Translations under genes and position numbers: made by a program
Notes under the pieces: model-generated
The model's input: the letters and a program-made list of their open reading frames with translations, nothing else
What the model was told of the DNA's origin: nothing
Database searches by the model: none
Origin: a virus
IMG/VR virus record: IMGVR_UViG_3300033571_005662
Span: 1-29,192 of that record
Reading direction: 5' to 3' (one strand)
Length of the DNA stretch: 29,192 bases
Shown: positions 6,893 through 26,760 of the stretch, piece by piece
Layout of the letters: each line of letters opens with the position of its first letter
How positions within the stretch are numbered: position 1 is the stretch's first letter

Positions 6893-7399
6893 ATGTCAGA
6901 TAAGAGCAAGTCTGAAGATATCATTATTCGCATTGGCACCCCTGAGGACCTCGATGGTCTGATGCAGATCGCCATGATGGCGACGGAAGAGAATGGATTT
7001 CTAGACCCTAATCCTGCCAAGCTGGCTGCCGAAATGTGGCCAGCCCTGCATCAGGATCACGGGATTGTGGGCATTATTGGCCCCAAGGATGGACAGATCG
7101 AAGGCGCTGTTCTTCTGCGGGTTGGAGACATGTGGTATTCGGATACTCAGGTTGTCGAAGAAAAGGCGATCTTTATCCACCCAGATTACCGCAGCGCCAA
7201 GGGCGGGCGCGCAAAGCGGCTTTGCGATTTCAGTAAAAAGGTAGCTGATGCTTTGGGCATCCCACTAATCATTGGCGTATTGTCGAATAGCCGCACTGAA
7301 GCTAAAGTGCGGATGTATGAACGCCAGTTTGGTAAGCCCAGCGGGGCTTTCTTTCTTTACGGCGCTAAAACTGGGATGAATTCCAGAGTGGAGCATTAA
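6893..7399 (+). CDS. GNAT-family acetyltransferase
   Basis: A 168-residue protein with an AAAGGA site before the ATG. It shows the GNAT layout: an N-terminal strand and helix (IIIRIGTPEDLDGLMQIAMM), central strands (GIVGIIGPKDGQIEGAVLLR, then DMWYSDTQVVEEKAIFIHPDYR) and the acetyl-CoA pyrophosphate loop at about 99-110 (YRSAKGGRAKRL, a variant of the R/Q-x-x-G-x-G/A signature), then helix, strand (LIIGVLSNS) and C-terminal YERQFGKPSGAFF. It transfers an acetyl group from acetyl-CoA to an amine; the substrate is unknown. It lies in the virion operon directly before the ejection-protein gene (TAA then ATG with no spacer), so a virion or ejection-protein substrate is possible, as is an injected enzyme that modifies host proteins. 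Confidence 0.8.
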   Translation: MSDKSKSEDIIIRIGTPEDLDGLMQIAMMATEENGFLDPNPAKLAAEMWPALHQDHGIVGIIGPKDGQIEGAVLLRVGDMWYSDTQVVEEKAIFIHPDYRSAKGGRAKRLCDFSKKVADALGIPLIIGVLSNSRTEAKVRMYERQFGKPSGAFFLYGAKTGMNSRVEH

Positions 7400-10300
7400 A
7401 TGGGCGGCAAGTCATCTCAGTCCACACAGCAAATCCAAATTCCGCCAGAGGTTTTGGCGAGGTACAATGCTGTCAACGCACGGGCTGAGATGGTTGCCGA
7501 ACGTCCTTTTCAGCAATACTCGACCGATCCGAATGCATTTGTTGCCCCGCTAACGCCCACTCAACTGGCTGGTATTTCTAATACCAACTATTATGCCGGT
7601 ACGGCGCAGCCCTATTATGCTTCTGCCACTCGGCAGCTTCTGGGCGCTCAGGACACCGCAATGCCTTTCTACGGTCAGGCTGCGCAGCAAGTTGGTCAGG
7701 CCCAAAATGTAGGCAATCGCCTTGCTGGCCTGTCTATGGAAAGCCTTTATGGTGCCCAAGGCGCTGCTTTCCAGCCCCAGCAGCAGGCGCAGCGGGCGTT
7801 TCAGCAAGGCTATTATGGTGCCCAGCCGTTCAACGAAGCCGCTGCCAGCCAATATTATGGCGGCCTTGCTGGCGCTCAGCCACTGCAAAATGCAGCCATA
7901 GCCAATCTTGCTGGCGCTCAGGGTATTGGAAGCGCCCTGTCCGGACGGTCCTTGGAAACTCTTGGAACCGCCCAAGGGCAGGCAGGATCAATCCAGCAAG
8001 GCGCACTTGGCGGTCTTGGGGCTGCTTACGGTATGGCTCAGCCGTTCAACATTGCCGCTGCTGGCCAGTATGCACAGGGATTGCAGCAGGGCCGTGGGAT
8101 GGCGGACCTTGCTGCTGCTGGTACGCAACAGGCGCTTTTGGGCGGCCAACCCTTCCAGCAGTCCGCTGCTCAGTTCATGGGCGCTGGTGCTCAGGCAGTT
8201 AATCCGGGTGCCTTGGGTGCTCAGCAGATCAACCAGTACATGTCGCCCTATCTGGCGAACGTGTTGCAGGGCACTGCCGCTCTCCAGAACCAAATGAACC
8301 AGCAGGCTCAGTCTGCCCAGCTTGGTAATGCGATCCGTCAGGGTGCTTTTGGTGGCGACCGTGCAGGCATTGCTGCGGCAAACCTCGCTCAGCAGCAGCA
8401 GCTTGCAAACTCGAAGATTTTCGCTGACATTCTCAATCAGGGCTATGGGCAGGCTCTTAGCGCCGCCCAGCAGCAGCAGCAGCTTGGTCTCGGTGCTGAG
8501 CAGGCTAACCGCGCAGCCCTCCAAAATGCTGCCCAGCAGTCTCTGGCCATTGGTCAGCAGGGCTTCGGTCAGGGCCTGTCGGCTGCTCAGCAGCAGGCGG
8601 CTCTTGGCCAGCAGCTTTATGGCATGGGCGCAGGCGGTGGCCAAAACCTTGCCGCCCTTGGGCAGCAGATTTTCGGGCAGGGCACAGGCACTGCCCAGCA
8701 GCAGGCCGCTCTGGCCAACCAGATGTTCGGTCAGGGTGCCACGACTGCCCAGCAGCAGGCCGCAATTGCCCAGCAGCTTTATGGTCAGGGGGCAGGCACG
8801 GCGCAGCAGCAGGCTGCTCTGGCGCAGCAAATCTTCGGTCAAGGGTCAACTTCTGGCCAGAACCTTGCGGCTCTGGGCCAGCAGCTTTATGGTCAGGGTA
8901 TTGGTTTTGGTCAGGCTCAGCAGGGGCTTGGTCAGCAGCTTTTCAATCAGGGCCTTGGGGCCTCACAGCAGTTCGCCAACCTCGGTCAGCAGCAGTTTGG
9001 GCAGGGCATGACTGCCGCGCAGCAGAATGCGGCGCTTGGCGCTGGCCTTTTTGGTATGGGCAGCCAGACCGCTCAGGGACTTGCCAATTTGGGCCTTGGG
9101 GCTCAGAGCGCAGGTCTTCAGGGTGCTCAGGCCCAGATGGCCGCAGGTCAGGCTCAGCAGCAGACGCAGCAGGCTGGCTTGCAGGCGCTCTACAACCAGT
9201 TCCTCCAGCAGCAGTCGTATCCGTTCCAAGTGGCGCAGTTCCTCGCGAACATCGCCATGGGGACGGGTGCGCTGTCTGGCTCGACCACTCAGACCAATCA
9301 GGCCATGGGTGGCTTCTCGGACAAGCGCCTGAAGGAGAACGTCAAGCCTGTTGGTAAGACCTTCGACGGCCAGACGATCTACAGCTACAACTTCAAGGGC
9401 GATCCCCAGACTGAAATCGGCCTGATCGCTCAGGAAGTCGAAAAGCGTCACCCTGAGGCTGTTGGTCTGGCTGGCGGCTACAAGACCGTCCGTTACGATA
9501 AGGCGACTGAAGACGCTGCGGATCGCGGCCACTTCGCCGCTGGTGGCTCCGCCATGGGCGGCGGTGTGATGCCGACGAACGCTGGCGAAGGCTACTTTGA
9601 TGGTGGTGCTGTGGGCTACGACCCCGCCATCATGCAGCAAATCCTTGCGTCCTATGAGCGGATGTACGCCCCGCTTCAGGGGGCAAAGGGCGGCCTTGGC
9701 GCTGCTTCTTTTGTCCCTGAAGCTGGACTCCCTGTCGGGCAGCTTATGACGGCTGGTGATCTTCCTGCCGCGCCTAGCGCCATGGAAGGTGTGCAGAGCA
9801 TGGTTGGCCTTGGCACTGGCCTTGGTGAGCTTGGCGGCAACCTTGGTGCTTGGGACTACACTGATGCCCAGCGCGCAGCGACTGAGCGCAAAAAGCGGGA
9901 AGAGGAAGCTCTTTCCGATGATGTCGAAGCCAAGGCTTATGGTGGTCTGGCCGGTGGGCGGCATGGTTATGAAGATGGAGGCGAAATCGTCGTTGAAGGT
10001 CGGCGTCAGACGCCTCCGGCGCAGCCGCCCAAGAAGATTGAAGTACCTTCGTCTACTCCGGAAGCAGCCAAGTTGGCTCCGGTCGCTAACATCGATACTT
10101 CTAAGACGATGGAAAAGCCCGCCTTCCAGAAGGTTGGGCTCGATATCCCGCAGATCGGTAATAAGGTCGGCATGGCTGTCGCTCCGGGCCTTTCCAGCCT
10201 GAAGGACAGCACGGGAGAAATCCTCGGCGCTATTGGCCAGATTGCTAGTGTCGCCTCTGACCGCCGCCTCAAGGAAAACATTAAGGCTGTCGGCAAGACC

Positions 10301-13063
10301 TTCGACGGCCAGACTGTCTACAGCTACAACTATAAGGGCGATCCGCAGACCCGCATGGGTCTGATCGCTCAAGAAGTTGCCAAGCATCACCCGCAGGCCG
10401 TTGGCCGGGTGAATGGCTATCGGACCGTGGACTACAAGCAGGCTACCGGTTTGGCGGCCAAGCGCGGCCACTTCGCCATGGGCGGTGAGGCTGGGGATAT
10501 GACCACCATGGCTCCGGGCATCGACATCCCGCTGCAAGGGGCTGGCACCGGCCTCGCTGTCGCTGCTGGCCTTGATCCGCTTAGGGACAGCACTGGCGAT
10601 TACCTCAGCGGTATCGGCAGCGTTGCCAAGGCCGGTAAGGATATCTTTGGTAAGGATAAGGACGAAAAGGCTCAAGGCGGCGCGATTGGCGGTCTCGGCG
10701 CGCTTGAATTCAAGCACGAAGGCCTTGAGCCGGACTTTGGGCTTGATCCTGAAGACCTGACCTCCGGCGAAGATGACAACTTTGAATACCTGATGCGTAA
10801 TCGTGGTATGCCGGTCGAGGAGGAGGCTCGTCCTTCTGGCCTCGCTGCCTTTGAGAAAGGCGCTCAGGACATTCGCGATATGCTGAGCGAAGAGCGTAAG
10901 CGGCCCGCAGGGCTTGCTGCTGCCTCCACTCGCGAAAACGCCCCAATGCCGTCTGATCTCGGAACCATTGCCAAGATGATCCGTGGCCATGAAGGCTTGG
11001 GTAAGAACCCGCTGTCTTCGGCTGTGGGTCCGTACCAGATGATCGACAGCACTTTCGTCAACTACTACCGCAAGCTCTATCCGGGGCAGGCTCAGGGCAA
11101 GTCGGATCGCGAAATCCTTTCGATCCGCCGGTCGCCCACTGGGATTGCTGTTTCGGAGCAGATCGGGCCCCAGATCATCCGCGATAACGCCCGCATTCTT
11201 CAGCGCAGTGGCTATGAGCCTAACGCCCGTAACGTCTATCTGGCGCACTTCTTTGGCCCTGAGACAGCCATCAAGGTGCTCTCAGCCAATCCGTCCACTC
11301 CGATTGAGCGTATTGTCGGTGATGCTGCTGTGAAAGCCAATCCCTTCCTGCGCGGTCGTGACGCCATGGGCGCTCTGAAGTTTGCTGAGCAGGCCATGGC
11401 CAAGCAGCAGCGCCGCCTGATGGGGCCCGGCAAGGCTGAGGGTGGGGGCCTCGCGGGGCGTCCTGCAAAGCAGCTTGGCGGAACATTTGAGGAAGAATTT
11501 GACGCCGCGTTCGGTAAGCCGAAGGAGGCTGGTCTTGCTGCTGCCGAAGCACCGGCTCCGGAGCAGCCGGCTGAGGCTGTCGGCACAGAAATCGTGGTTA
11601 ACGCCCCGTCCCGCCGCACTCCCCCTCCGAAGCCAGAACTGCCTGAGTTTGCCGGTGTGCGTCCGACCAGCTTTGGGCGCGGCGAGAAGCAGAAGCCGGT
11701 GACCTACGAAGGCGGCAACATTCCGAGCTACAGCTACGACTACATGACTGAGCCCTTTTTCAAGGGGCTTAAGAGTGGCTCGGCTCAGTCTTGGATACCG
11801 CTTCTGACCGGCCTTGGCACGTTTGCCACGATGCCGACCCGCAGTATGCTGAGCGGCTTCCTCGGCGGCGTTGGCGCTGGTGCCCAAACGTATGCCAACA
11901 TGGCCAATGAGCGGAACAAGCAGCTTCCGACCCGTCAGGCTGCTATGGCTCAGTACGGCACGGCTATGCGTGGCTTCATCGAAAAGGACTTCCAGCCGCT
12001 GGGCGGCGGACGTTGGTATTATGTCCCGACTGGCGAGGTCCTCACGCAGGAACAGTATTATGCTCTGCGCGCACGGATGCAGTCGCCCAATACGGTTACA
12101 CCGTTCATGGCCCCCGGTGGGATCGGTGAGCAGTACAATCCCGAAAGGGATAGCGGCTTCCGGCCTCCGAAGGCTCCGCCATCTCTGCCGAATATCCAGC
12201 CGGATATGAGCACTGTCGGCGGCATCTATGCCACCGCTTTTGCTGACCCTACGGTTGTGAGCGCACGGCAGCGCAAGTCTGCCGCGCAGACTACAATCGA
12301 AGACGGCACAAAGCTGCTTCAGGACCCACAAATCCTGTCCTCGTCTAATAAGGTCGAGGGTATTCGCTCGGCTATGGCGAATGCTCAGGTCGAACTGGCT
12401 TCCGCCACGAAGGATTACGACACCCGCATCGCTCAAATTACGGACGTTCCTCTCCAGAACCTCAGCGCGACCCAGCGGGCTGCATTCGAAGGCACACTGG
12501 AAAAGGCCTACCAGCTTGAAGCCGACAAGAGCGCGATGCGTCCGCTCATGCAGCAGTTTGCTGCGCTCAAGGGCGATTTTTCGGGTGGTACGGCGCAGGG
12601 CGCTTGGGCTCGTCTGGCTGACTTCGTGGCCAACTTCGGCAACCTGTCGGATGAGCAGAAGAAGCTGGTCGCTAACGGTGCTGATGCGAACTCGCGTCAG
12701 GCCATTATGCAAATCCTTGGCGGTCCGGTGTTCGATCCGAATATGCCGGGTGATGCCCTCAAGTGGGTCTACGACAATTACGTCCAGCCCCGCTACAAGG
12801 ACCTCGACATTCAGATCAGGTCGCTCAAGCCGTACACGACCCCGACTGGAGCCCCCCAAAGCTCGGTTGGCGTCAGCCCCACCATTGCACCTCCCCCTGT
12901 CACCCCGCCTGCGCGGACACAGGGAGCGCCCGTGGTCCTTGGCCGCGATGGCATCTGGCGCGGGGCCAGCGAAGAGGCTATTCAGGCTGACAACCGCATC
13001 AAACCGGGAACCCGTTATCGCATCCCGGACGGCAAGGGCGGCTTCATCGAAGGGGTTAAGTAA
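7400..13063 (+). CDS. Giant ejection/internal virion protein: 18-residue repeats, two S74-like modules, SLT domain
   Basis: A 1887-residue protein starting immediately after the GNAT stop (GGAG 6 bases upstream). Order of parts: residues 1-380, Gln/Ala/Gly-rich helical region; 386-565, ten consecutive 18-residue repeats (QQ-hydrophobic-F/Y-GQG...AQQQAALG); about 636-710, S74-like module 1 (Ser640-Asp641, KRLKEN, GLIAQEV); about 950-1025, S74-like module 2 (Ser953-Asp954, RRLKEN, GLIAQEV); about 1180-1340, lytic-transglycosylase domain with candidate catalytic Glu1198 (GHEG), GPYQ at 1210-1213 and AHFFG at 1282-1286; then linkers, an Ala/Leu-rich part and a long C-terminus. The SLT domain would cut peptidoglycan glycan strands during DNA entry, as in T7 gp16-like ejection proteins. 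Both S74 modules lack the long C-terminal coiled coil of fibre versions. Repeated Gly-Gly linkers and IVV-proline-rich segments occur twice (near 865 and 1395). It ends in TAATG, overlapping the next gene. Confidence 0.8.
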   Translation: MGGKSSQSTQQIQIPPEVLARYNAVNARAEMVAERPFQQYSTDPNAFVAPLTPTQLAGISNTNYYAGTAQPYYASATRQLLGAQDTAMPFYGQAAQQVGQAQNVGNRLAGLSMESLYGAQGAAFQPQQQAQRAFQQGYYGAQPFNEAAASQYYGGLAGAQPLQNAAIANLAGAQGIGSALSGRSLETLGTAQGQAGSIQQGALGGLGAAYGMAQPFNIAAAGQYAQGLQQGRGMADLAAAGTQQALLGGQPFQQSAAQFMGAGAQAVNPGALGAQQINQYMSPYLANVLQGTAALQNQMNQQAQSAQLGNAIRQGAFGGDRAGIAAANLAQQQQLANSKIFADILNQGYGQALSAAQQQQQLGLGAEQANRAALQNAAQQSLAIGQQGFGQGLSAAQQQAALGQQLYGMGAGGGQNLAALGQQIFGQGTGTAQQQAALANQMFGQGATTAQQQAAIAQQLYGQGAGTAQQQAALAQQIFGQGSTSGQNLAALGQQLYGQGIGFGQAQQGLGQQLFNQGLGASQQFANLGQQQFGQGMTAAQQNAALGAGLFGMGSQTAQGLANLGLGAQSAGLQGAQAQMAAGQAQQQTQQAGLQALYNQFLQQQSYPFQVAQFLANIAMGTGALSGSTTQTNQAMGGFSDKRLKENVKPVGKTFDGQTIYSYNFKGDPQTEIGLIAQEVEKRHPEAVGLAGGYKTVRYDKATEDAADRGHFAAGGSAMGGGVMPTNAGEGYFDGGAVGYDPAIMQQILASYERMYAPLQGAKGGLGAASFVPEAGLPVGQLMTAGDLPAAPSAMEGVQSMVGLGTGLGELGGNLGAWDYTDAQRAATERKKREEEALSDDVEAKAYGGLAGGRHGYEDGGEIVVEGRRQTPPAQPPKKIEVPSSTPEAAKLAPVANIDTSKTMEKPAFQKVGLDIPQIGNKVGMAVAPGLSSLKDSTGEILGAIGQIASVASDRRLKENIKAVGKTFDGQTVYSYNYKGDPQTRMGLIAQEVAKHHPQAVGRVNGYRTVDYKQATGLAAKRGHFAMGGEAGDMTTMAPGIDIPLQGAGTGLAVAAGLDPLRDSTGDYLSGIGSVAKAGKDIFGKDKDEKAQGGAIGGLGALEFKHEGLEPDFGLDPEDLTSGEDDNFEYLMRNRGMPVEEEARPSGLAAFEKGAQDIRDMLSEERKRPAGLAAASTRENAPMPSDLGTIAKMIRGHEGLGKNPLSSAVGPYQMIDSTFVNYYRKLYPGQAQGKSDREILSIRRSPTGIAVSEQIGPQIIRDNARILQRSGYEPNARNVYLAHFFGPETAIKVLSANPSTPIERIVGDAAVKANPFLRGRDAMGALKFAEQAMAKQQRRLMGPGKAEGGGLAGRPAKQLGGTFEEEFDAAFGKPKEAGLAAAEAPAPEQPAEAVGTEIVVNAPSRRTPPPKPELPEFAGVRPTSFGRGEKQKPVTYEGGNIPSYSYDYMTEPFFKGLKSGSAQSWIPLLTGLGTFATMPTRSMLSGFLGGVGAGAQTYANMANERNKQLPTRQAAMAQYGTAMRGFIEKDFQPLGGGRWYYVPTGEVLTQEQYYALRARMQSPNTVTPFMAPGGIGEQYNPERDSGFRPPKAPPSLPNIQPDMSTVGGIYATAFADPTVVSARQRKSAAQTTIEDGTKLLQDPQILSSSNKVEGIRSAMANAQVELASATKDYDTRIAQITDVPLQNLSATQRAAFEGTLEKAYQLEADKSAMRPLMQQFAALKGDFSGGTAQGAWARLADFVANFGNLSDEQKKLVANGADANSRQAIMQILGGPVFDPNMPGDALKWVYDNYVQPRYKDLDIQIRSLKPYTTPTGAPQSSVGVSPTIAPPPVTPPARTQGAPVVLGRDGIWRGASEEAIQADNRIKPGTRYRIPDGKGGFIEGVK
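8555..9094 (+). repeat. Ten tandem 54-bp (18-residue) repeats
   Basis: Ten in-frame units of exactly 18 codons run without any insertion. The unit is Q-Q-(L/I/M/F)-(F/Y)-G-Q-G-x-x-x-A-Q-Q-x-A-A-L-(G/A). A diverged eleventh unit precedes them, separated by 22 residues. At DNA level, CAGCAGCTTTATGGTCAGGG occurs at 8771-8790 and again at 8879-8898, exactly two periods apart. Eighteen residues equals five alpha-helical turns, which would put the hydrophobic positions 3, 4, 16 and 17 on one face, but glycine content is high for a plain helix. Confidence 0.9.
10172..10626 (+). repeat. Duplicated DSTG segment flanking S74-like module 2
   Basis: Within the giant protein, 10172-10246 (MAVAPGLSSLKDSTGEIL, then GAIGQIAS) and 10552-10626 (LAVAAGLDPLRDSTGDYL, then SGIGSVAK) encode clearly related 25-residue segments. 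The first leads straight into S74-like module 2; the second leads instead into a lysine-rich linker, as if the following module were lost. The S74-like modules themselves (about 9311-9535 and 10250-10475) are also duplicates, sharing the 20-base run AAGACCTTCGACGGCCAGAC. Confidence 0.75.
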
Positions 13064-16000
13064 TGACTCAGAAGGAAAAGCCGTGGTGGGAACGGGCTTG
13101 GGACTGGGCCGTCGAGGGCGAGGACACTCCTCGCGTTCCCTATATTGACCCCAAGACGAAGCGCGCTGTTACCAATGTGCAGCCTACCGGTCCTGACGGT
13201 CGCCGCACTGCGCCTAATCCGGAAACCAGTTGGACCGAGTTCTTTACGAACATCAAAAACAACTGGGGCCTTGGCCGTATGGCCGAAACTGCGCGTGGCA
13301 TGGTCCGTGGGATCAAGGATATCCCGCAGGCAGTGATGTTCTTCGACTCTGCGCGCCGAGGCTTCGAAGCAGAGGGAATGAGCCCTAAGCAGTATTACGA
13401 CACGTATTTGTCGGGAACTGGCATCGCGTCCTATGCTTTCGCGCCTAGGAGGCCACGCCCATCTGACGCGCAAATTCGGCAGGTTATGCAGCGCGACATT
13501 CAAGCTGCTAATGCTCTGGCTAACGCCTTCTCTTATCGAGATGCTAAGGGTGAATTGCATTTTGACTCGCAAGGCATGTGGCGCACGATTAGTCAGGACC
13601 CGACAGGCGCTCTGGCGGCTATTGCTATCGGCGGGGAGGGCGCTGCCCTTAAAGGTGCGGCTGCTTTCGGTAAAATTGCTCGAACCGCTCAGGCTGGATC
13701 GCGCACTGCAAAAATGGCGAATATCACCGAAAAAGCCCTGAACGTTGCGGCCAATACTGCCAAGACAGCCAAGTGGGTTGCTAACCCGATTATTCCTGCG
13801 ACTGCTGCCGCACTTCAGAGCGCGCCAGTCCGGGATGTGGCTACTGCAACCATCAATGCTGCGCGTGGGCGTCAGTCAATCTATCGCCCAGAGTTCAACA
13901 GGGCGTGGACGCCCTTCAAGGCTGCGGCTGAAGAGCGCCTGCGCGCTAATGGCGTTTCTGATGATGTGATCGCCTCGCCTGAGGCCCAGCAGCGCATCTA
14001 TGACATGTTCCAGCAGCAGACCAATGGCCGCTTTGCTGATCCTTTTACGGCCAAGGCTTCGGCAGCCATGCGTGAAGCCGATCTCGATCCGGCAGCCTAC
14101 GCCGCGCCGCATCTTGGCTCGATTATTGAAAACACGGTCAATGCCAAGCGCGGCATTACCCCGGCTATCATGAGCGAGGGCGCGATGCGCGTGGCCGGTG
14201 CCAGCAACGTCACCCGCAGCGCAGCGACTGGCGAAGCCCCCGGCATGATCTTCCGCAATCAGGAAGGCCCCGCCCGCGCCCGATCCGAAGCCGATATGGC
14301 GGAGACGCTTTCTAGCCGCTTTGCGCCTCCTCCGGGATCGCAGGCTCCGGGTCTGCGCGATGTCACCGATGACTTCATCAACACCCAGATGGAGCGGCGC
14401 AACGCTTTCGGCCAGTCATATGAGGCTGCCGCCCGGAATGATGGCGTCTACAGCGATCCGAATGCTTTTGTGGCCAATCTGGACCAAGAGGCCGCTGCCC
14501 TTCTGAGGCAGCGCGGCATCGATCCGACTGAGCTTCAGAGCAATGCTGATATCTTCCGTGGGGCCAATTCCGCATCTGCGAACCTACGCCGGAACATTGA
14601 AAACCATGGCGCAAGCGTCCCCCCGATTGAGGAAAGCGTTGGCGGCATCCTCTATTCGCTCGACCGTCAGTACAACATTTGGCTCGACCAGAATGGCAAC
14701 CCGGCACCTAATCTGGTGCAAAGGGCCCTGAATGCTGATCCGACTGTTCAGGCACGGATCAATGCACCTGCCCCGCAGCCGGTTAACCGCCTCAGCCTTG
14801 AGAACTTGGAGATCGAGCGCCGCAGGCTGAATGCAGCAGCCGAGCGCGCCTATCAGCAGGGCGTCCAGTCTGGCGACTTCCGCGAATATCAAGCGATCAC
14901 GGCCTACCGTGATGCGCTGGACAACACCTCGATCAACATGGGCGGCACTTTCACTGGTGATGCTCAAGCCGCGATCCCGCGCCTTCAGCAGGGCCGTGCT
15001 CAGTATCAGGAATGGCGCAACAGCGGCATCGACTCCCAAAATCCGATTGTGCGCGATGCGGCGCAGCGGGTGATGCAGCGCACTGAAGCCGATCCTGGCA
15101 CCGGCCAGTATCGTTTCAACGACACGCCGGGTGCCCGCGATGTCGTTGCCGATGCCTTTGCTGGCAAGATCGTCGGAACCGATGGTGTCGCCCCCTCTGC
15201 CACTTTCGGCAGCGGTTTGGCGACCACCAATCCGGCTGAAACCTTTACAGCCCTGTCTCGCACCCTCTCTCCGGATGGTCAGGGCGCTCTGCGCGGATAT
15301 GTGCGCGCAGAGGGCTATGGCCGTCCGGGTGCGACCACAAATCAAATTCTGGACCTTGACCGCGCATATGCCAGTCAGGGTGTCAATCTACTCACGCCGG
15401 AAGAGCGTAATTTCCTGAACATCAGCGTCGAGCGCCGCATGGCCACTTCGCCTCAGAACATCCCGCAGCGTGATCCATTCAACTGGAACCCGTTTGCGGA
15501 TGTCAACGCTGAGCAGGGCGCGCTCGATAAGGCGATGAAGATCGCTGGCCCCTTTGTGAAGGGCAGTGTCGGTTACGGCGTTGGCAACATGATCGGTGGC
15601 CCCGGTATGGGCATGGCCTTCAGCGGCATGGGCGCTCTGGAAGACCCGCTGGTGCGCGGCGCTAAGCAGATCGGCCTGTTCCGTAATGAACAGGGCGGCG
15701 CTCCGCGCTATGCGGTAGGCATTCCCGACACGCAGGCCCCACTGGCGATTGGCATGACCTATGGCAGCCAAGCGGCTCAGCAGAGCGCGGAAGAGCGTCA
15801 GAGGCGCGCTGACGAAGAAGCCCTGAGGCTCATGGGTCAACCGCCTTCCTTGACCGCCCCTGCGGCTCAGGGAACGTCACAGGTCCCTCCCGTATCCGCA
15901 CTTCCGGCCCGCAACGCTCAGAATGTCACGGCCAGCGAGGATGCAGCGTTCCTGAAAAGCCTTCAGCCCTCGACTGCTGATGAAGATGAAGCCTTCCTGA

Positions 16001-16206
16001 AGGGGCTGCCACAGCCCCGGTCCACAGGCGGTCGCGCTGCTTACAAGAGTGGTGGAGCGGTAAACGACATCGAGCCGTTGGTGCGGAACCTGATGAACAG
16101 GGCGCAGCAGGCAAAGAAAATGACCAACAAGGACACAGAGGCGCTGCTTAATTCGCATGATGATGCTATTGCAAGCGCACTTGAAGTCGCTCAGAAAGCG
16201 ATCTGA
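13063..16206 (+). CDS. Large internal virion/ejection protein
   Basis: A 1047-residue protein coupled to the giant protein by a TAATG overlap, with AAGGGG upstream. The N-terminus is tryptophan-rich (WWERAWDWAVEG), then WTEFFTNIKNNWGLGRM. Residues 180-280 are Ala-rich helices with small hydrophobic stretches (GALAAIAIGGEGAALKGAAA), which could insert in membrane. A long charged, helical middle follows, then a Gly-rich hydrophobic segment near 820-860 (GSVGYGVGNMIGGPGMGMAF). The C-terminus has the short repeat DAAFLKSL/DEAFLKGL and ends with a 60-residue tail: STGGRAAYKSGG, then IEPLVRNLMNRA, TEALLNS-DDAI and ALEVAQKAI. I recognise this tail as a recurrent ending of phage internal proteins, function unknown. 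Size, position between ejection protein and fibre, and membrane-compatible helices suggest a component of the DNA ejection conduit. Confidence 0.7.
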   Translation: MTQKEKPWWERAWDWAVEGEDTPRVPYIDPKTKRAVTNVQPTGPDGRRTAPNPETSWTEFFTNIKNNWGLGRMAETARGMVRGIKDIPQAVMFFDSARRGFEAEGMSPKQYYDTYLSGTGIASYAFAPRRPRPSDAQIRQVMQRDIQAANALANAFSYRDAKGELHFDSQGMWRTISQDPTGALAAIAIGGEGAALKGAAAFGKIARTAQAGSRTAKMANITEKALNVAANTAKTAKWVANPIIPATAAALQSAPVRDVATATINAARGRQSIYRPEFNRAWTPFKAAAEERLRANGVSDDVIASPEAQQRIYDMFQQQTNGRFADPFTAKASAAMREADLDPAAYAAPHLGSIIENTVNAKRGITPAIMSEGAMRVAGASNVTRSAATGEAPGMIFRNQEGPARARSEADMAETLSSRFAPPPGSQAPGLRDVTDDFINTQMERRNAFGQSYEAAARNDGVYSDPNAFVANLDQEAAALLRQRGIDPTELQSNADIFRGANSASANLRRNIENHGASVPPIEESVGGILYSLDRQYNIWLDQNGNPAPNLVQRALNADPTVQARINAPAPQPVNRLSLENLEIERRRLNAAAERAYQQGVQSGDFREYQAITAYRDALDNTSINMGGTFTGDAQAAIPRLQQGRAQYQEWRNSGIDSQNPIVRDAAQRVMQRTEADPGTGQYRFNDTPGARDVVADAFAGKIVGTDGVAPSATFGSGLATTNPAETFTALSRTLSPDGQGALRGYVRAEGYGRPGATTNQILDLDRAYASQGVNLLTPEERNFLNISVERRMATSPQNIPQRDPFNWNPFADVNAEQGALDKAMKIAGPFVKGSVGYGVGNMIGGPGMGMAFSGMGALEDPLVRGAKQIGLFRNEQGGAPRYAVGIPDTQAPLAIGMTYGSQAAQQSAEERQRRADEEALRLMGQPPSLTAPAAQGTSQVPPVSALPARNAQNVTASEDAAFLKSLQPSTADEDEAFLKGLPQPRSTGGRAAYKSGGAVNDIEPLVRNLMNRAQQAKKMTNKDTEALLNSHDDAIASALEVAQKAI

Positions 16207-16216
16207 GGAGGGCTAG

Positions 16217-18439
16217 ATGGCCAGTTCGTATACACCTAACAAGAACATCGAGAAGCCCGCCAACGGCGACTACATCAATACATGGTCAACCCCGGTCAAT
16301 AATGACTGGGACATCATTGATAAGGCATTTGGCGGTAAGACCACCCTTAACGTGGTCTCGGTGTCTGGCACGGTTCTTCTGACTGCATCCCAGTATCAGC
16401 CGCCAATCATTATTTTGAGCGGCGCACTGACGGCCAACATCAACTACCAAATTCCGGCTGGGGTCGGTGGCTTCTGGTTCATCTACAACAACACCAGCGG
16501 GTCTTTCACCGTCACATTCTCAAGTGCTGGTGGTGGCAGTTCGGTAAATCTTGTTCAGGGCAGGACTACGGCTGTCATTTCGGATGGTGCCAATATTGGT
16601 CTGGCCGATACCAACCTGTCACCCGCCGCTGGCAGCAATACGCAGGTTCAGTATAATAATGGCGGCCTTCTTGGCGCTTCTGCAAACTTCGTGTTTGATG
16701 CCAACAAGGTCGGCATTAATATCGCCTCCCCGAAGACCGCGCTGCAAGTTTCTGGGACTGCCTTCCTCAACGCGCCGGTCCTGACCAGCGCGACAGGTGC
16801 GCCACTCTACGTCACCAACGCAGACAGTTCCTATGGCTTGGTCGCGGGGGTCAACTCGGCAGACGGTCATGCTTGGTTCCAAGCGCAGCGCACTGACGGA
16901 ACGGCAACGGCGTCCAACATTACCTTTAATGAGGCGGGTGGAAACGTCGGGATCGGGACGAGCAGCCCTGCGGTGCCTTTGGAGGTTGCGGGTAACATCC
17001 GCTCTTCGGGCCTGTTCCAGCGTGTTGACAACTCCGGTCTGTCTTTGTCGGGCGGGACTACCTTCAACACTGGCGGTGCCGGTATCGCGCTTCGCGGTGT
17101 TTCCGCTGGTTTCAACACCTACGGCATGGAGTTTTACACAGGCGGCTCCGAACGCATGCGCATCACCAGCGGCGGCGACGTTGGGATCGGCACCACGTCG
17201 CCAAGTGCGCGGCTCGACGTTTCTGGCTCCAGTTCGCGCAGTCGCCTCGAAGTCACAACGACTACAGCTACGTGGGTTACGACCAACCCTGCGGCAAATG
17301 CCTACCTCGGCACGGCTTACGATGCGCTGTCCCACCGCTTTTTGACTTCTAGCTCCGAACGTATGCACATCACCAGCGGTGGCAACGTCGGGATCGGCAC
17401 TACTTCGCCATCCACGGCTCTCCAAGTTGTTGGTACCGTCACCGCTACGTCGTTCACTGGTGCGGGCACCGGGTTGACTGGCACTGCGTCAGGTCTCTCA
17501 ATCGGCGGAAACGCGGCGACCGCTACGTCCGCCACAACGGCTGGGTCGGCAACCACGGCTGGGTCGGTGACGAATGCAGTCACATTTAACAACAGCGGTT
17601 CGGGTGCTGCCTCAGGGACAACGTTCGACGGCTCTGTCGCCCGGACGATCAGTTACAACACGGTGGGCGCTCCCTCGACCGGCGGCGCTGGCGCGTCCGG
17701 AACGTGGGGCATCAGCATTAGCGGAAACGCGGCTACGGCTACGAGCGCGACTACAGCTACGTCAGCCACCACCGCTACAACCGCCACCACCGCTACAACC
17801 GCCAATGCGCTCAACACGGGTAATACCTATACCGCTGTTGGGTACGTCTCCACGGCTACGGCTGGCACGGCGCTGCAAGTTGGCGACAATTCAGGCATCC
17901 GTAACTTCGGCAACGGCTCCACGATCTATATCGACGTAGCGGGCGGCAGCGCGTCTGCGGGGTCGCTCGTCCTTCGAAATACGAACGCCTTCACCGCTAT
18001 GGCGACCTTTAGTGGTAGCGGAACCCAATTGACCTCGCTGGGCGTCGGGACAGCGCCGTCCGGCACTGCGGGTGAAATCCGGGCGACCAACAACGTCACG
18101 GCCTATTTCTTGTCGGACGCCCGTCTGAAGGAGAACGTGGCCGATATCGTTGGCGCTTTGGACAAGGTCTGCGCGATTGGCGGCAAGACCTTCGATTGGA
18201 CCGATGCCTACATCACTGCCCATGGCGGCGCGGATGGCTACTTCGTCCGCAAGTCGGACTTCGGCGTCATCGCACAGGATGTGCAGGCGGTCTTCCCGCT
18301 GGCAGTGCGTGAGCGTGAGGATGAGACGCTGGCAGTCGATTACGAAAAGCTGGTTGCCTTGGCCTTCGAGGCTATCAAGGAACTGCGGGCTGAAGTAGCT
18401 GAGCTGCGGTCTCAGGCGACCAAGGTGGTCAAGCCGTGA
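16217..18439 (+). CDS. Tail fibre with C-terminal S74 chaperone/peptidase domain
   Basis: A 740-residue protein with a strong GAGGAGG site 5 bases from its ATG. Residues 1-130 are a virion-attachment-type N-terminus (NGDYINTWSTPVNNDWDIID, then beta strands). The shaft has four VGI(G/N)-(T/I)-SP-LxVxG units (near 170, 245, 325 and 395), ERMRITSGG motifs, and two Ala/Thr-rich stretches containing GNAATATSATTA. The S74 domain begins at Ser633-Asp634 (ARLKENV), has FGVIAQDV and ends with a coiled coil (AFEAIKELRAEVAELRSQ). Established S74 behaviour predicts trimerisation and self-cleavage after Ser633, releasing a fragment of about 107 residues. Paralogue of the fibre at the window start; two S74 fibres in one phage suggest two receptor specificities or a fibre plus spike. 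It ends in GTGA, overlapping the next start. Confidence 0.88.
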   Translation: MASSYTPNKNIEKPANGDYINTWSTPVNNDWDIIDKAFGGKTTLNVVSVSGTVLLTASQYQPPIIILSGALTANINYQIPAGVGGFWFIYNNTSGSFTVTFSSAGGGSSVNLVQGRTTAVISDGANIGLADTNLSPAAGSNTQVQYNNGGLLGASANFVFDANKVGINIASPKTALQVSGTAFLNAPVLTSATGAPLYVTNADSSYGLVAGVNSADGHAWFQAQRTDGTATASNITFNEAGGNVGIGTSSPAVPLEVAGNIRSSGLFQRVDNSGLSLSGGTTFNTGGAGIALRGVSAGFNTYGMEFYTGGSERMRITSGGDVGIGTTSPSARLDVSGSSSRSRLEVTTTTATWVTTNPAANAYLGTAYDALSHRFLTSSSERMHITSGGNVGIGTTSPSTALQVVGTVTATSFTGAGTGLTGTASGLSIGGNAATATSATTAGSATTAGSVTNAVTFNNSGSGAASGTTFDGSVARTISYNTVGAPSTGGAGASGTWGISISGNAATATSATTATSATTATTATTATTANALNTGNTYTAVGYVSTATAGTALQVGDNSGIRNFGNGSTIYIDVAGGSASAGSLVLRNTNAFTAMATFSGSGTQLTSLGVGTAPSGTAGEIRATNNVTAYFLSDARLKENVADIVGALDKVCAIGGKTFDWTDAYITAHGGADGYFVRKSDFGVIAQDVQAVFPLAVREREDETLAVDYEKLVALAFEAIKELRAEVAELRSQATKVVKP
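17765..17800 (+). repeat. Exact 18-base tandem repeat in the fibre shaft
   Basis: GCCACCACCGCTACAACC occurs twice back to back (17765-17782 and 17783-17800), coding the Ala/Thr run in the tail-fibre shaft. A similar Ala/Thr block lies near 17510-17570. Such blocks can expand or contract by slippage and change shaft length. Confidence 0.8.
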
Positions 18440-22148: not shown

Positions 22149-22183
22149 GGGTGATGCGGATTGACCGCGCAAGGAGCAAAACG

Positions 22184-22771
22184 ATGAGCAAGCTGACCAA
22201 AAATATCCGTGAGCGCATGGCGCGCAGGCTAGTAAATCACCGCTATAAGGCTGAGGCCAATGTGCTGGTCGCGAAGAACCAAGAACTATTCGAGCGCGCC
22301 TACGCGCACTGCTACAACGAAGAACTTATTAATGCGGTGAAGCTGATCGAGAAGAATTTCCCGCACTCGATGGACAGCAACAACCAGATGACCGTTAACG
22401 CTGGCGGCTTCCGACTGACAATTGGAGGGAACTTCTCTTCACGCTGGGTAACTGTCAGCCAGCCCGCCGTGGAAGAGCGCGTCATGCATTCGGACTATCG
22501 ACCGCACAACATCACTGACCAAGCCTTGATCCAAGAGATTAAGGAATATGCCGATAGCCGCAGAACCTTCGATGAGAAGTGCCAGACCGCATACAATGAA
22601 GCCATGTCGGCCCTGAACACCATGACCACCGGTAAGAGGCTTGCAGAGGCATGGCCTGAGGCGATCCCGGTTATTGGCGACTTGATCCCTGCCGATCAGC
22701 GCACCCTACCTGTGGTGGTGGTGTCTGAGATCAACAAGAAGTTCGGGCTGCCGCCGGAGGAAGCGGCGTGA
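22184..22771 (+). CDS. Conserved phage early protein, unknown function
   Basis: A 195-residue protein. The start at 22184 is chosen over 22151 because AAGGAG sits 7 bases before it and the protein then opens with MSKLTKNIRERMARRLVNHR, a basic helical opening common in phage early proteins (some are filed as Nmad5, a putative nucleotide-modification-associated family; I cannot confirm that here). The middle has strands (MTVNAGGFRLTIGGNFSSRW) and the end is helical (EINKKFGLPPEEAA). It is the first gene under operator A and leads a run of small genes. No catalytic motif is visible. Confidence 0.65.
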   Translation: MSKLTKNIRERMARRLVNHRYKAEANVLVAKNQELFERAYAHCYNEELINAVKLIEKNFPHSMDSNNQMTVNAGGFRLTIGGNFSSRWVTVSQPAVEERVMHSDYRPHNITDQALIQEIKEYADSRRTFDEKCQTAYNEAMSALNTMTTGKRLAEAWPEAIPVIGDLIPADQRTLPVVVVSEINKKFGLPPEEAA

Positions 22772-24636: not shown

Positions 24637-26760
24637 GTGACATCTATTCTATTCGATCCCGACTTCGCGGGTCCAGCCGACTGGGCGGCGCTATATCGGC
24701 AACTCGGCCTTCAGGTTGTGCCCGCGAAGATGCCCCGCGAGGACAAGGCGTGGAAGCGCCCGATCATCAAGTGGCGTGAGTATGAAGGCAGCCTGACGGA
24801 CGATGCCACCTATGCCGGGTGGTATGGTCCGCAGGGCGAATTCCGCAACCGCGAGAACATGGGCCTGATCACTGGCGCTGCATCTGGCAACGTCTGGGTG
24901 CTCGACATCGACAGCCATAACCATCCGCAGGCGATGAAGTGGCTGCAAGCCCTGATCGATGAATGGAATGATGGCATCCCGCTCCGGACCGCTACCCAGC
25001 GGACCGGTGGCGGTGGTGTCCAGATTTTCTTCAGCGCCCCTGACGGCTGGGTGCCGCCCACGAACAAGACCAGCATGGGGATCGACATCCGGGGTGCTGG
25101 CGGCTTCGCCATGCTCCCACCCAGTATGCACGAAAGCGGCGTCAACTACGCTTGGATCAAGAGCTATGAGCCTTGGCTGGTCGGCATCATGGAAGCCCCG
25201 TCATGGATCGTGGAGGCCGTTGACGAACTGCTGAGCCAGTTCACCAAGGTCGAGCGCGGGGAGCGCACCGAAAGCCCAGCGCAGGCGGTCGATAGCTTTG
25301 GCCAGATCGTGGACGGGCGCGAGGATTACATGACCCGGCTGATCTGGGGTCGGGTGGTATCATTGTACCGTGAGTGCCCGTTCGATCCTCTGGATGGCCA
25401 CCAGCTTGAAATGCGCGAAGCGTGGAAGCTGTACGACAGCAACGTCAAGTCGCGCCTGTTCGAGCCGGGTACGCCAAACCATGTGCTGCTTGAGCGCGAG
25501 GGGCGTGGGCCCAGCCTGTTTGCCCAGAAATGGGATCAGGCGATCAGTCAATGGAACACTAAGGTAAAGGAAGCGGCGGCTCTTCCCGCACCAGAAAAAA
25601 AGCTAGAGAGCCCTCAGGAACGGCAGCAGGACGAAGACGTTGACCTCAGCCCTGAGGACATCATGGAAGATGTCTTCGAGTGGCTCGATGTTATGGGGAT
25701 CAAGAACCTCCCCGATCCTGAGTGGCTCATCGCCAAGATCATCATCGCCCGAAGCCTAGGCTTCATTTACGGCACCCCCGGCGCGGGCAAATCATTCATA
25801 GCACTTGGCATCGCCCTGTGCATCGCTGCTGGCATGAAGGATTGGTGGGGCCGCGAGATCAAGCACACCGGTCCTGTGATCTACATTTCGAGCGAAGGCG
25901 TGTCGGACATCAAGTTCCGCATCCGCGCTTGGGAAACCGCGCTGAACATCAACGCTGATGAGCTTCCCTTCTTCCTGATCCACCAGACCATCGATTTCAT
26001 GAAGGAAGAAGACACCAACAAGCTTCTGCGGACCATTAATAAGGTGGTTCAGACCACTGGGGAGATGCCGGTGTTTGTGGTGGTCGATACGGTCAGCCGT
26101 GTGCTGCCCGGTGCCGACGAAAACCTCCAGAAGGACATGACCCTGTTCATCAAGGCCTGTGACGAAGTGAAGGAAGCTTTCGGCTCGACCGTCTGCGGTG
26201 TCCACCACACCAGCCGTCAGGGCAATCTACGCGGATCGACCGTGTTCGACGGCGCTGCGGACTTTTTGCTTTCCGTCAGCCGCGAGGAAGGAAGCGAGAT
26301 CGGCCAACTTCACGCCAAGAAGATCAAGGCGGCTGAGGACGGCTGGACGCAGAACTTCAAGCTCAGGAAGATCGATCTGGGCGATATTGCTGGCAACACC
26401 AGCCTGTTTGCAGAACCGACTGATGAGCAGATCGAGGACAAGGAAGAAGGCGGCTGGCCGTCGAAGCCTGTCTGTCAGGAGATCGTGAACGCAATCCGCG
26501 ATGCGTGGAGCACGGGGAGGCCGTGGTCCAACCACCACCATGCCCGCAAGGATGGCCGCTACGCCATGCTGCACATGAACCAGCGGTGGGGTGTGGATGA
26601 GCGTACCGGGGCTCAGATGATCGAGGCGTGGCTGACCAACGGAATTCTTGAGGTTGCCCTGTTTGATCCGCGCACAAAAATGCGCGGGCTGCGAGTGCTC
26701 AACAATCTTTATGACGCTCAGTCGATGCCAAAGCAAAATTGGTACGAAAAAGATGATTGA
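24637..26760 (+). CDS. Prim-Pol primase-polymerase fused to RepA-like AAA ATPase/helicase
   Basis: A 707-residue replication protein starting at GTG (GGGG about 7 bases upstream). Residues 15-205 are a bifunctional primase/polymerase (AEP) domain: Asp90 and Asp92 in VLDIDS, a Gly-rich loop GGGGVQIFF at 124-132, and GIDIRGAGGFAMLPPS at 148-163. The histidine usual after the Gly-rich loop is replaced by Gln129. Residues about 340-600 form a RepA/AAA_25-type ATPase: Walker A GTPGAGKS at 379-386, Walker B VFVVVD ending at Asp484, and VHHTSRQGN then LRGSTVFDGAAD downstream. The C-terminal 100 residues look like a winged helix (MLHMNQRWGVDERTGAQMIE). It would prime and unwind at the phage origin. 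The stop TGA is inside the TTGACA of operator C. Confidence 0.88.
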   Translation: MTSILFDPDFAGPADWAALYRQLGLQVVPAKMPREDKAWKRPIIKWREYEGSLTDDATYAGWYGPQGEFRNRENMGLITGAASGNVWVLDIDSHNHPQAMKWLQALIDEWNDGIPLRTATQRTGGGGVQIFFSAPDGWVPPTNKTSMGIDIRGAGGFAMLPPSMHESGVNYAWIKSYEPWLVGIMEAPSWIVEAVDELLSQFTKVERGERTESPAQAVDSFGQIVDGREDYMTRLIWGRVVSLYRECPFDPLDGHQLEMREAWKLYDSNVKSRLFEPGTPNHVLLEREGRGPSLFAQKWDQAISQWNTKVKEAAALPAPEKKLESPQERQQDEDVDLSPEDIMEDVFEWLDVMGIKNLPDPEWLIAKIIIARSLGFIYGTPGAGKSFIALGIALCIAAGMKDWWGREIKHTGPVIYISSEGVSDIKFRIRAWETALNINADELPFFLIHQTIDFMKEEDTNKLLRTINKVVQTTGEMPVFVVVDTVSRVLPGADENLQKDMTLFIKACDEVKEAFGSTVCGVHHTSRQGNLRGSTVFDGAADFLLSVSREEGSEIGQLHAKKIKAAEDGWTQNFKLRKIDLGDIAGNTSLFAEPTDEQIEDKEEGGWPSKPVCQEIVNAIRDAWSTGRPWSNHHHARKDGRYAMLHMNQRWGVDERTGAQMIEAWLTNGILEVALFDPRTKMRGLRVLNNLYDAQSMPKQNWYEKDD

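Follow-up and report, generated by a model that had tools for sequence, protein, structure and literature searches.

What are two S74 domains doing in the middle of a phage ejection protein? The S74/ICA domain has been described as a C-terminal chaperone on fibres and spikes, and from MYRF in eukaryotes. The window analyzed here is the whole 29,192-nt virus record IMGVR_UViG_3300033571_005662, read on one strand, and it encodes a protein of 1887 residues in which an original prediction had placed two shortened, potentially self-cleaving S74-like copies ahead of a lytic transglycosylase. The analysis below asks whether these copies are S74 domains, how they came to lie inside the protein, and whether they would cut it.

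Layout of the fused ejection protein

By homology, the 1887-residue product is a DNA ejection protein of the short-tailed-phage type, in agreement with the ejection-protein context first proposed for it. The family profile of its N region matches phiM5_27 (5e-24) and OH p40 (3e-24), both of which align end to end with phrog_4287 "DNA ejection protein", and a link to the "DNA ejection" family phrog_598 is seen through PAE2_13 only. The lytic transglycosylase expected behind the modules was likewise recovered, with matches to phrog_4067 (E = 9e-15), phiKZ gp144 (E = 2.6e-4) and the family profile (3e-55); a Pfam search of the 1887-residue protein is silent on this domain. The family profile of the C region matches the internal virion protein phiM5_29 at 6e-7, and a profile comparison with PAE2_14 is weak (1e-4). 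The Gln-rich repeat region (7400-9316) contains units like GQQLYGQGxGTAQQQAALA, and the length of this region before module 1 varies widely among relatives, from ~190 to 820 residues. Coordinates are collected in Table 1.

Table 1. Positions of the fused gene, its parts and the neighboring features in the window
Feature	Position	Strand	Basis or remark
GNAT acetyltransferase directly upstream of the fused gene	6893..7399	+	Pfam
Fused ejection protein, 1887 aa	7400..13063	+	ORF, Pfam/PHROG comparison, relatives
Residues 1-639, Gln/Ala/Gly-rich first ejection protein part	7400..9316	+	Related to N region of phiM5/OH proteins (phrog_4287 class)
Module 1 (S74/ICA), residues 640-714	9317..9541	+	Predicted scissile bond Phe639/Ser640; dyad Ser640/Lys645
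Spacer, residues 715-952	9542..10255	+	Starts with Gly-rich linker, ends with short apolar stretch
Direct-repeat segment preceding module 2, residues 913-949	10136..10246	+	Alignment score 99 against shuffle maximum of 58
Module 2 (S74/ICA), residues 953-1027	10256..10480	+	Predicted scissile bond Ala952/Ser953; dyad Ser953/Lys958
Direct-repeat segment following module 2, residues 1040-1076	10517..10627	+	Alignment against shuffles
Lytic transglycosylase domain, ~residues 1194-1334	10979..11401	+	phrog_4067, phiKZ gp144, family profile
C-terminal part, ~residues 1440-1887, boundary approximate	11717..13060	+	Family C-region profile matches phiM5_29
Next gene, 1047 aa, positional counterpart of the last ejection protein	13063..16206	+	Inferred from gene order only
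Canonical C-terminal S74 with long helix on tail fibre (internal comparison)	18113..18436	+	Pfam, sequence

Elsewhere in the window, an ORF among the structural genes (1509-2579) matches the phrog_13126 beta-1,4-glycosyltransferase (2e-103), a protein with an Nmad5 nucleotide-modification domain (22151-22771; PF18757, 6e-21) suggests modified DNA bases, and positions 24637-26760 encode a Prim-Pol plus AAA ATPase replication protein; phiM5 encodes a Prim-Pol protein too.

Identity of the two modules and their Ser-Lys dyads

The motifs lie exactly where they had been predicted, with SDKRLKEN at residues 640-647 (9317-9340) and GLIAQEV at residues 674-680 in module 1, and SDRRLKEN at residues 953-960 (10256-10279) and GLIAQEV at residues 987-993 in module 2. 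Searched as a whole, the protein matches PF13884 Peptidase_S74 in two stretches (E = 2.7e-20), and the modules scored singly reach 43.7 and 42.4 bits against a Pfam gathering cut-off of 22 bits. As judged from these scores, the S74/ICA identity of both modules is a match far beyond chance. Since the matches span model positions 1-57 of 58, the copies are not shortened relative to the Pfam domain; what is missing is the trimerising helix behind it, and in that respect the description as shortened holds.

AlphaFold2, run with alignments of 81 and 41 relatives, predicts a confident core in both modules (pLDDT ~80-85 for module 1 and 91-95 for module 2). Plain Foldseek against the PDB returned nothing significant for module 1. 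Among the PDB chains re-aligned, the best for both modules is the MyRF ICA domain, at low Z scores of 4.7 and 4.3, followed for module 2 by the GA-1 neck-appendage chaperone at a low Z of 3.7, while the best unrelated rows reach 2.4 (module 1) and 3.0 (module 2). In BFVD, many of the top matches come from phages and carry ICA domain names, several of these proteins being longer than 800 residues.

The two modules are 72% identical in protein and 73% in DNA (residues 640-714 versus 953-1027), and module 2 is bracketed by a direct repeat of 37 residues (GLDIPQIG...IGQIA and GIDIPLQG...IGSVA). The sequence upstream of copy 2 is apolar, as is that upstream of the C-terminal forms (mean hydropathy 0.99 and 0.88), whereas copy 1 follows a polar STTTTTQP linker (-0.24). 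Features of this kind would fit duplication of a spacer-module unit.

Both modules carry the candidate catalytic dyad with Lys at Ser+5, the spacing of MyRF S587/K592 (PMC8326128), T5 pb1 Ser1264/Lys1269 (PMC4690869) and endoNF S911/K916 (PMC8326128, PMC4690869). When modules were collected with a dyad-blind profile, built solely from columns downstream of the dyad, S-[DE]-x-x-x-K was found upstream in 191 of 192 distinct modules; in two scans with seeds that excluded the dyad, it is kept in 60/60 modules (N-region seed) and in 45/46 (bacterial genomes), and the sole exception is a gene fragment without an upstream reading frame. In second copies, S, D and K are all kept in 29/29, a set that had been picked by SD. 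Residues +2, +4 and +6 vary freely beside the dyad. All four TCN codons are used for the module serine, with AGC or AGT in 5/199. Structural residues (G+12, G+34, A+37 and P+45) are invariant as well, so invariance of the dyad alone is no proof of catalysis. Two variants were also noted: L179-L181 (~residues 430-512) have a 17-residue insertion right after SDPRLK with the dyad intact, and the second module of L052 is truncated (~residues 545-581).

The helical features that the original prediction held to be needed for S74 cleavage are absent in both sequence and structure prediction. Each module is followed, after V-x-Y, by a helix of just 10-12 residues and then a low-confidence Gly-rich linker, and the long C-terminal coiled-coil trimerising helix was not found behind either module in the sequence or in the AlphaFold2 models. 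In MyRF, by comparison, four heptads of coiled coil stand behind the ICA domain, and leucine-zipper mutations block cutting (PMC8326128). No upstream stretch is predicted by AlphaFold2 as strand before either module, as a triple beta-helix would be, and there is no Arg, the sensor residue, among the 40 residues before either module serine; MYRF cuts without the beta-helix sensor residue (PMC8326128). The tail fibre of the same window (16217-18439) does have the long helix in its sequence, and with its S74 domain added to the two internal modules, this one phage encodes three such domains, spread over two types of protein.

Relatives and the origin of the fused gene

Scans of viral contigs with the query protein, the module alignment and the N-region alignment gave 170 loci, some of which overlap in part. 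Internal modules recur among these environmental relatives in zero, one or two copies at the same place. The large relative ORFs, of 941-2086 residues, have one or two internal modules; given this range, the window gene is no longer regarded as unusual in length. The N-region scan is independent of module presence, and its 46 complete distinct ORFs comprise 7 with no module, 26 with one and 13 with two. A quick tree of the N region (62 sequences), in which many branches are weak, requires at least 13 changes in module count; for the no-module state the figure is 4, of which starred branches force 2, and for the two-module state it is 9, of which they force 3. All seven members of the window's own clade have two modules and the transglycosylase. 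The tree offers too few independent pairs for a correlation of copy number with transglycosylase presence.

In module-free relatives, the linker GALSGSTTTT continues directly into the Gly-rich stretch, and for this reason the module behaves as a cassette. One of these relatives (L172) has the N region and the transglycosylase but no module, from which it follows that cutting would not be essential to this ejection-protein family.

Where do the cassettes come from? In phages that keep the corresponding genes separate, the module is the C-terminus (the last 60-75 residues) of a protein of ~300-500 residues. Carriers are Ochrobactrum phage OH, Pseudomonas phage PAE2, a Bradyrhizobium prophage, Sinorhizobium phage phiM5, Sulfitobacter phage pCB2047-C, EBPR podovirus 2, Rhizobium phage RHph_N2, a Microcystis phage and others, and the proteins that end at the module include phiM5_27 (468 aa), OH p40 (379), PAE2_13 (303), that of pCB2047-C and others. 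Behind this protein, several of these phages have a gene with an annotation as peptidoglycan hydrolase, tape measure or internal virion protein, and according to GenBank phiM5_27 and the three genes that follow it were detected in the proteome of the particle. An acetyltransferase like the one directly upstream of the fused gene also lies upstream in several separate-gene phages and in MW202675. Taken together, these relations make a fusion of about three ejection-protein genes the best reading of the window gene, module 1 marking where the first once ended. The genes that fused would have encoded a first ejection protein ending in S74/ICA, a peptidoglycan hydrolase and another internal virion protein, and the S74 cassette would have remained at the fusion point, now doubled in the window's lineage. 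Since the window's transglycosylase profile matched no separate gene, the middle part of the fusion is assigned from gene order and annotation. The 1047-residue product of the next gene has no Pfam or PHROG match. The fused arrangement is shared across the lineage and did not arise with this gene. The original proposal that cutting would separate ejection functions gains from the separate-gene relatives, since module 1 lies where the first ejection protein once ended.

Possible self-cleavage, its alternatives and known systems

Does the protein cut itself? That both cassettes still self-cleave before their serine is plausible, and we regard the matter as evenly balanced; the prediction is drawn from the strict retention of the Ser-Lys pair. 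The cassettes would cut the bond before the serine after oligomerisation of the protein. This would probably happen as it assembles on the portal, with neighboring chains standing in for the missing coiled coil. T5 pb1 is cut at Thr1263-Ser1264 (PMC4690869) and MyRF at Pro586-Ser587 (PMC8326128), while one structure placed the serine on the other side of the cut, with weaker density (PMC4690869). By analogy with T5 pb1 and MyRF, a cut, if it occurs, would most likely fall before Ser, one residue earlier than in the original prediction, so that the expected new N-termini are Ser640 and Ser953 instead of Asp641 and Asp954, and the pieces would be of 639, 313 and 935 residues instead of 640, 313 and 934. 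The virion would then receive residues 1-639 as the first ejection protein, 640-952 as a middle part and 953-1887 as the part with the transglycosylase, a set resembling that of separate-gene phages. If cut, the fused gene would yield its three pieces in equal numbers, in contrast to P22, whose three injected proteins number ~12, 12 and 30 copies (PMC8402733). Internal translation starts were considered as another source of pieces and set aside, with only short candidate Shine-Dalgarno-like stretches seen.

A wider reading, which we hold possible but less likely than not, is that the ejection apparatus is a polyprotein cut twice by built-in S74 domains lacking a coiled coil of their own, with portal packing supplying the trimer and cutting reporting correct assembly inside the head. 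Oligomerisation without the helix, the cutting and its timing are steps that we infer. A serious alternative, though less probable than self-cleavage, is that the cassettes fold without cutting and serve as oligomerisation or docking beads along a long extended ejection protein, with Ser, Asp and Lys kept for the fold. The helix and the beta-helix sensor needed in the studied cases are absent here, conservation is just as strict at several glycines, one alanine and one proline as at the dyad, and module-free relatives exist, all of which would suit such beads. However, virtually every module, second copies included, has its Ser and Lys spaced exactly as in the dyad, beside positions +2, +4 and +6 that are free to change, and a structural role has no obvious need for Ser specifically across TCN and AGY codons.

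The same strict conservation bears on two further readings. It is unlikely that a single copy cuts, either copy 2 beside its apolar stretch or copy 1 at the fusion point, with the other acting as a folding aid; the differing upstream sequences, apolar for copy 2 and the polar STTTTTQP linker for copy 1, would allow for this, but both copies keep the dyad in all cases seen. Still more improbable is that the modules are relics of the fusion, persisting merely from their ancestral gene-end position and without present function. Module 1 does sit at the old gene end, copy number has changed repeatedly on the tree, and the second copy of L052 is truncated; yet the dyad is strictly conserved although the modules have diverged far elsewhere, nearly all copies are complete, and second copies are conserved too. 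The occurrence of such modules on ejection proteins makes polyprotein-like processing of these proteins after synthesis a testable question, and it raises the question of whether a coiled coil is necessary for cutting.

The domain, its chemistry, its internal use in MYRF and the existence of S74-tailed ejection proteins in databases are already known, and in UniProt proteins of this type appear as "Intramolecular chaperone auto-processing domain containing". A literature search for the S74/endosialidase chaperone domain on ejection or internal virion proteins found no description, and the arrangement seen here, fused, doubled and without the helix, is undescribed for ejection proteins in the literature searched. 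These observations extend the S74/ICA domain to a widespread class of ejection proteins, which pass the portal; the domain is C-terminal where the genes are separate and internal where they are fused.

With the phage S74/ICA chaperones of K1F endoNF, T5 pb1 and the GA-1 neck appendage, the window modules share the full-length Pfam domain, the Ser-Lys dyad at +5 and, tentatively given the low Z scores, the predicted core fold. They differ in being internal and doubled, in lacking the long trimerising helix, the upstream beta-helix and the sensor arginine, and in being carried by an ejection protein instead of a fibre or spike. To our knowledge, no S74 domain is known from P22 gp7/gp20/gp16 or T7 gp14/gp15/gp16, which are functional analogues by gene position and whose genes are separate. 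T7 gp16 also bears a transglycosylase (PMC8954989). The ejection proteins phiM5_27, OH p40 and PAE2_13 (phrog_4287 and phrog_598) have the same module, and in the phrog_4287 members an N region related to that of the window, but in these the module is terminal and later functions lie in separate genes. MW202675.1 "internal virion protein D" (1185 aa) has the same fused layout with the acetyltransferase upstream and an N region ~75% identical to the window's where aligned (17% of the query), and it differs in having one module and no match to the family transglycosylase profile. The best structural match among the re-aligned chains is eukaryotic MYRF, which like the window protein has an internal ICA domain with a functional part on each side, but in which four coiled-coil heptads are required for trimerisation and cutting and are followed by a membrane segment. 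An internal ICA domain dividing one protein into two functional halves is already known from MYRF (PMC8326128).
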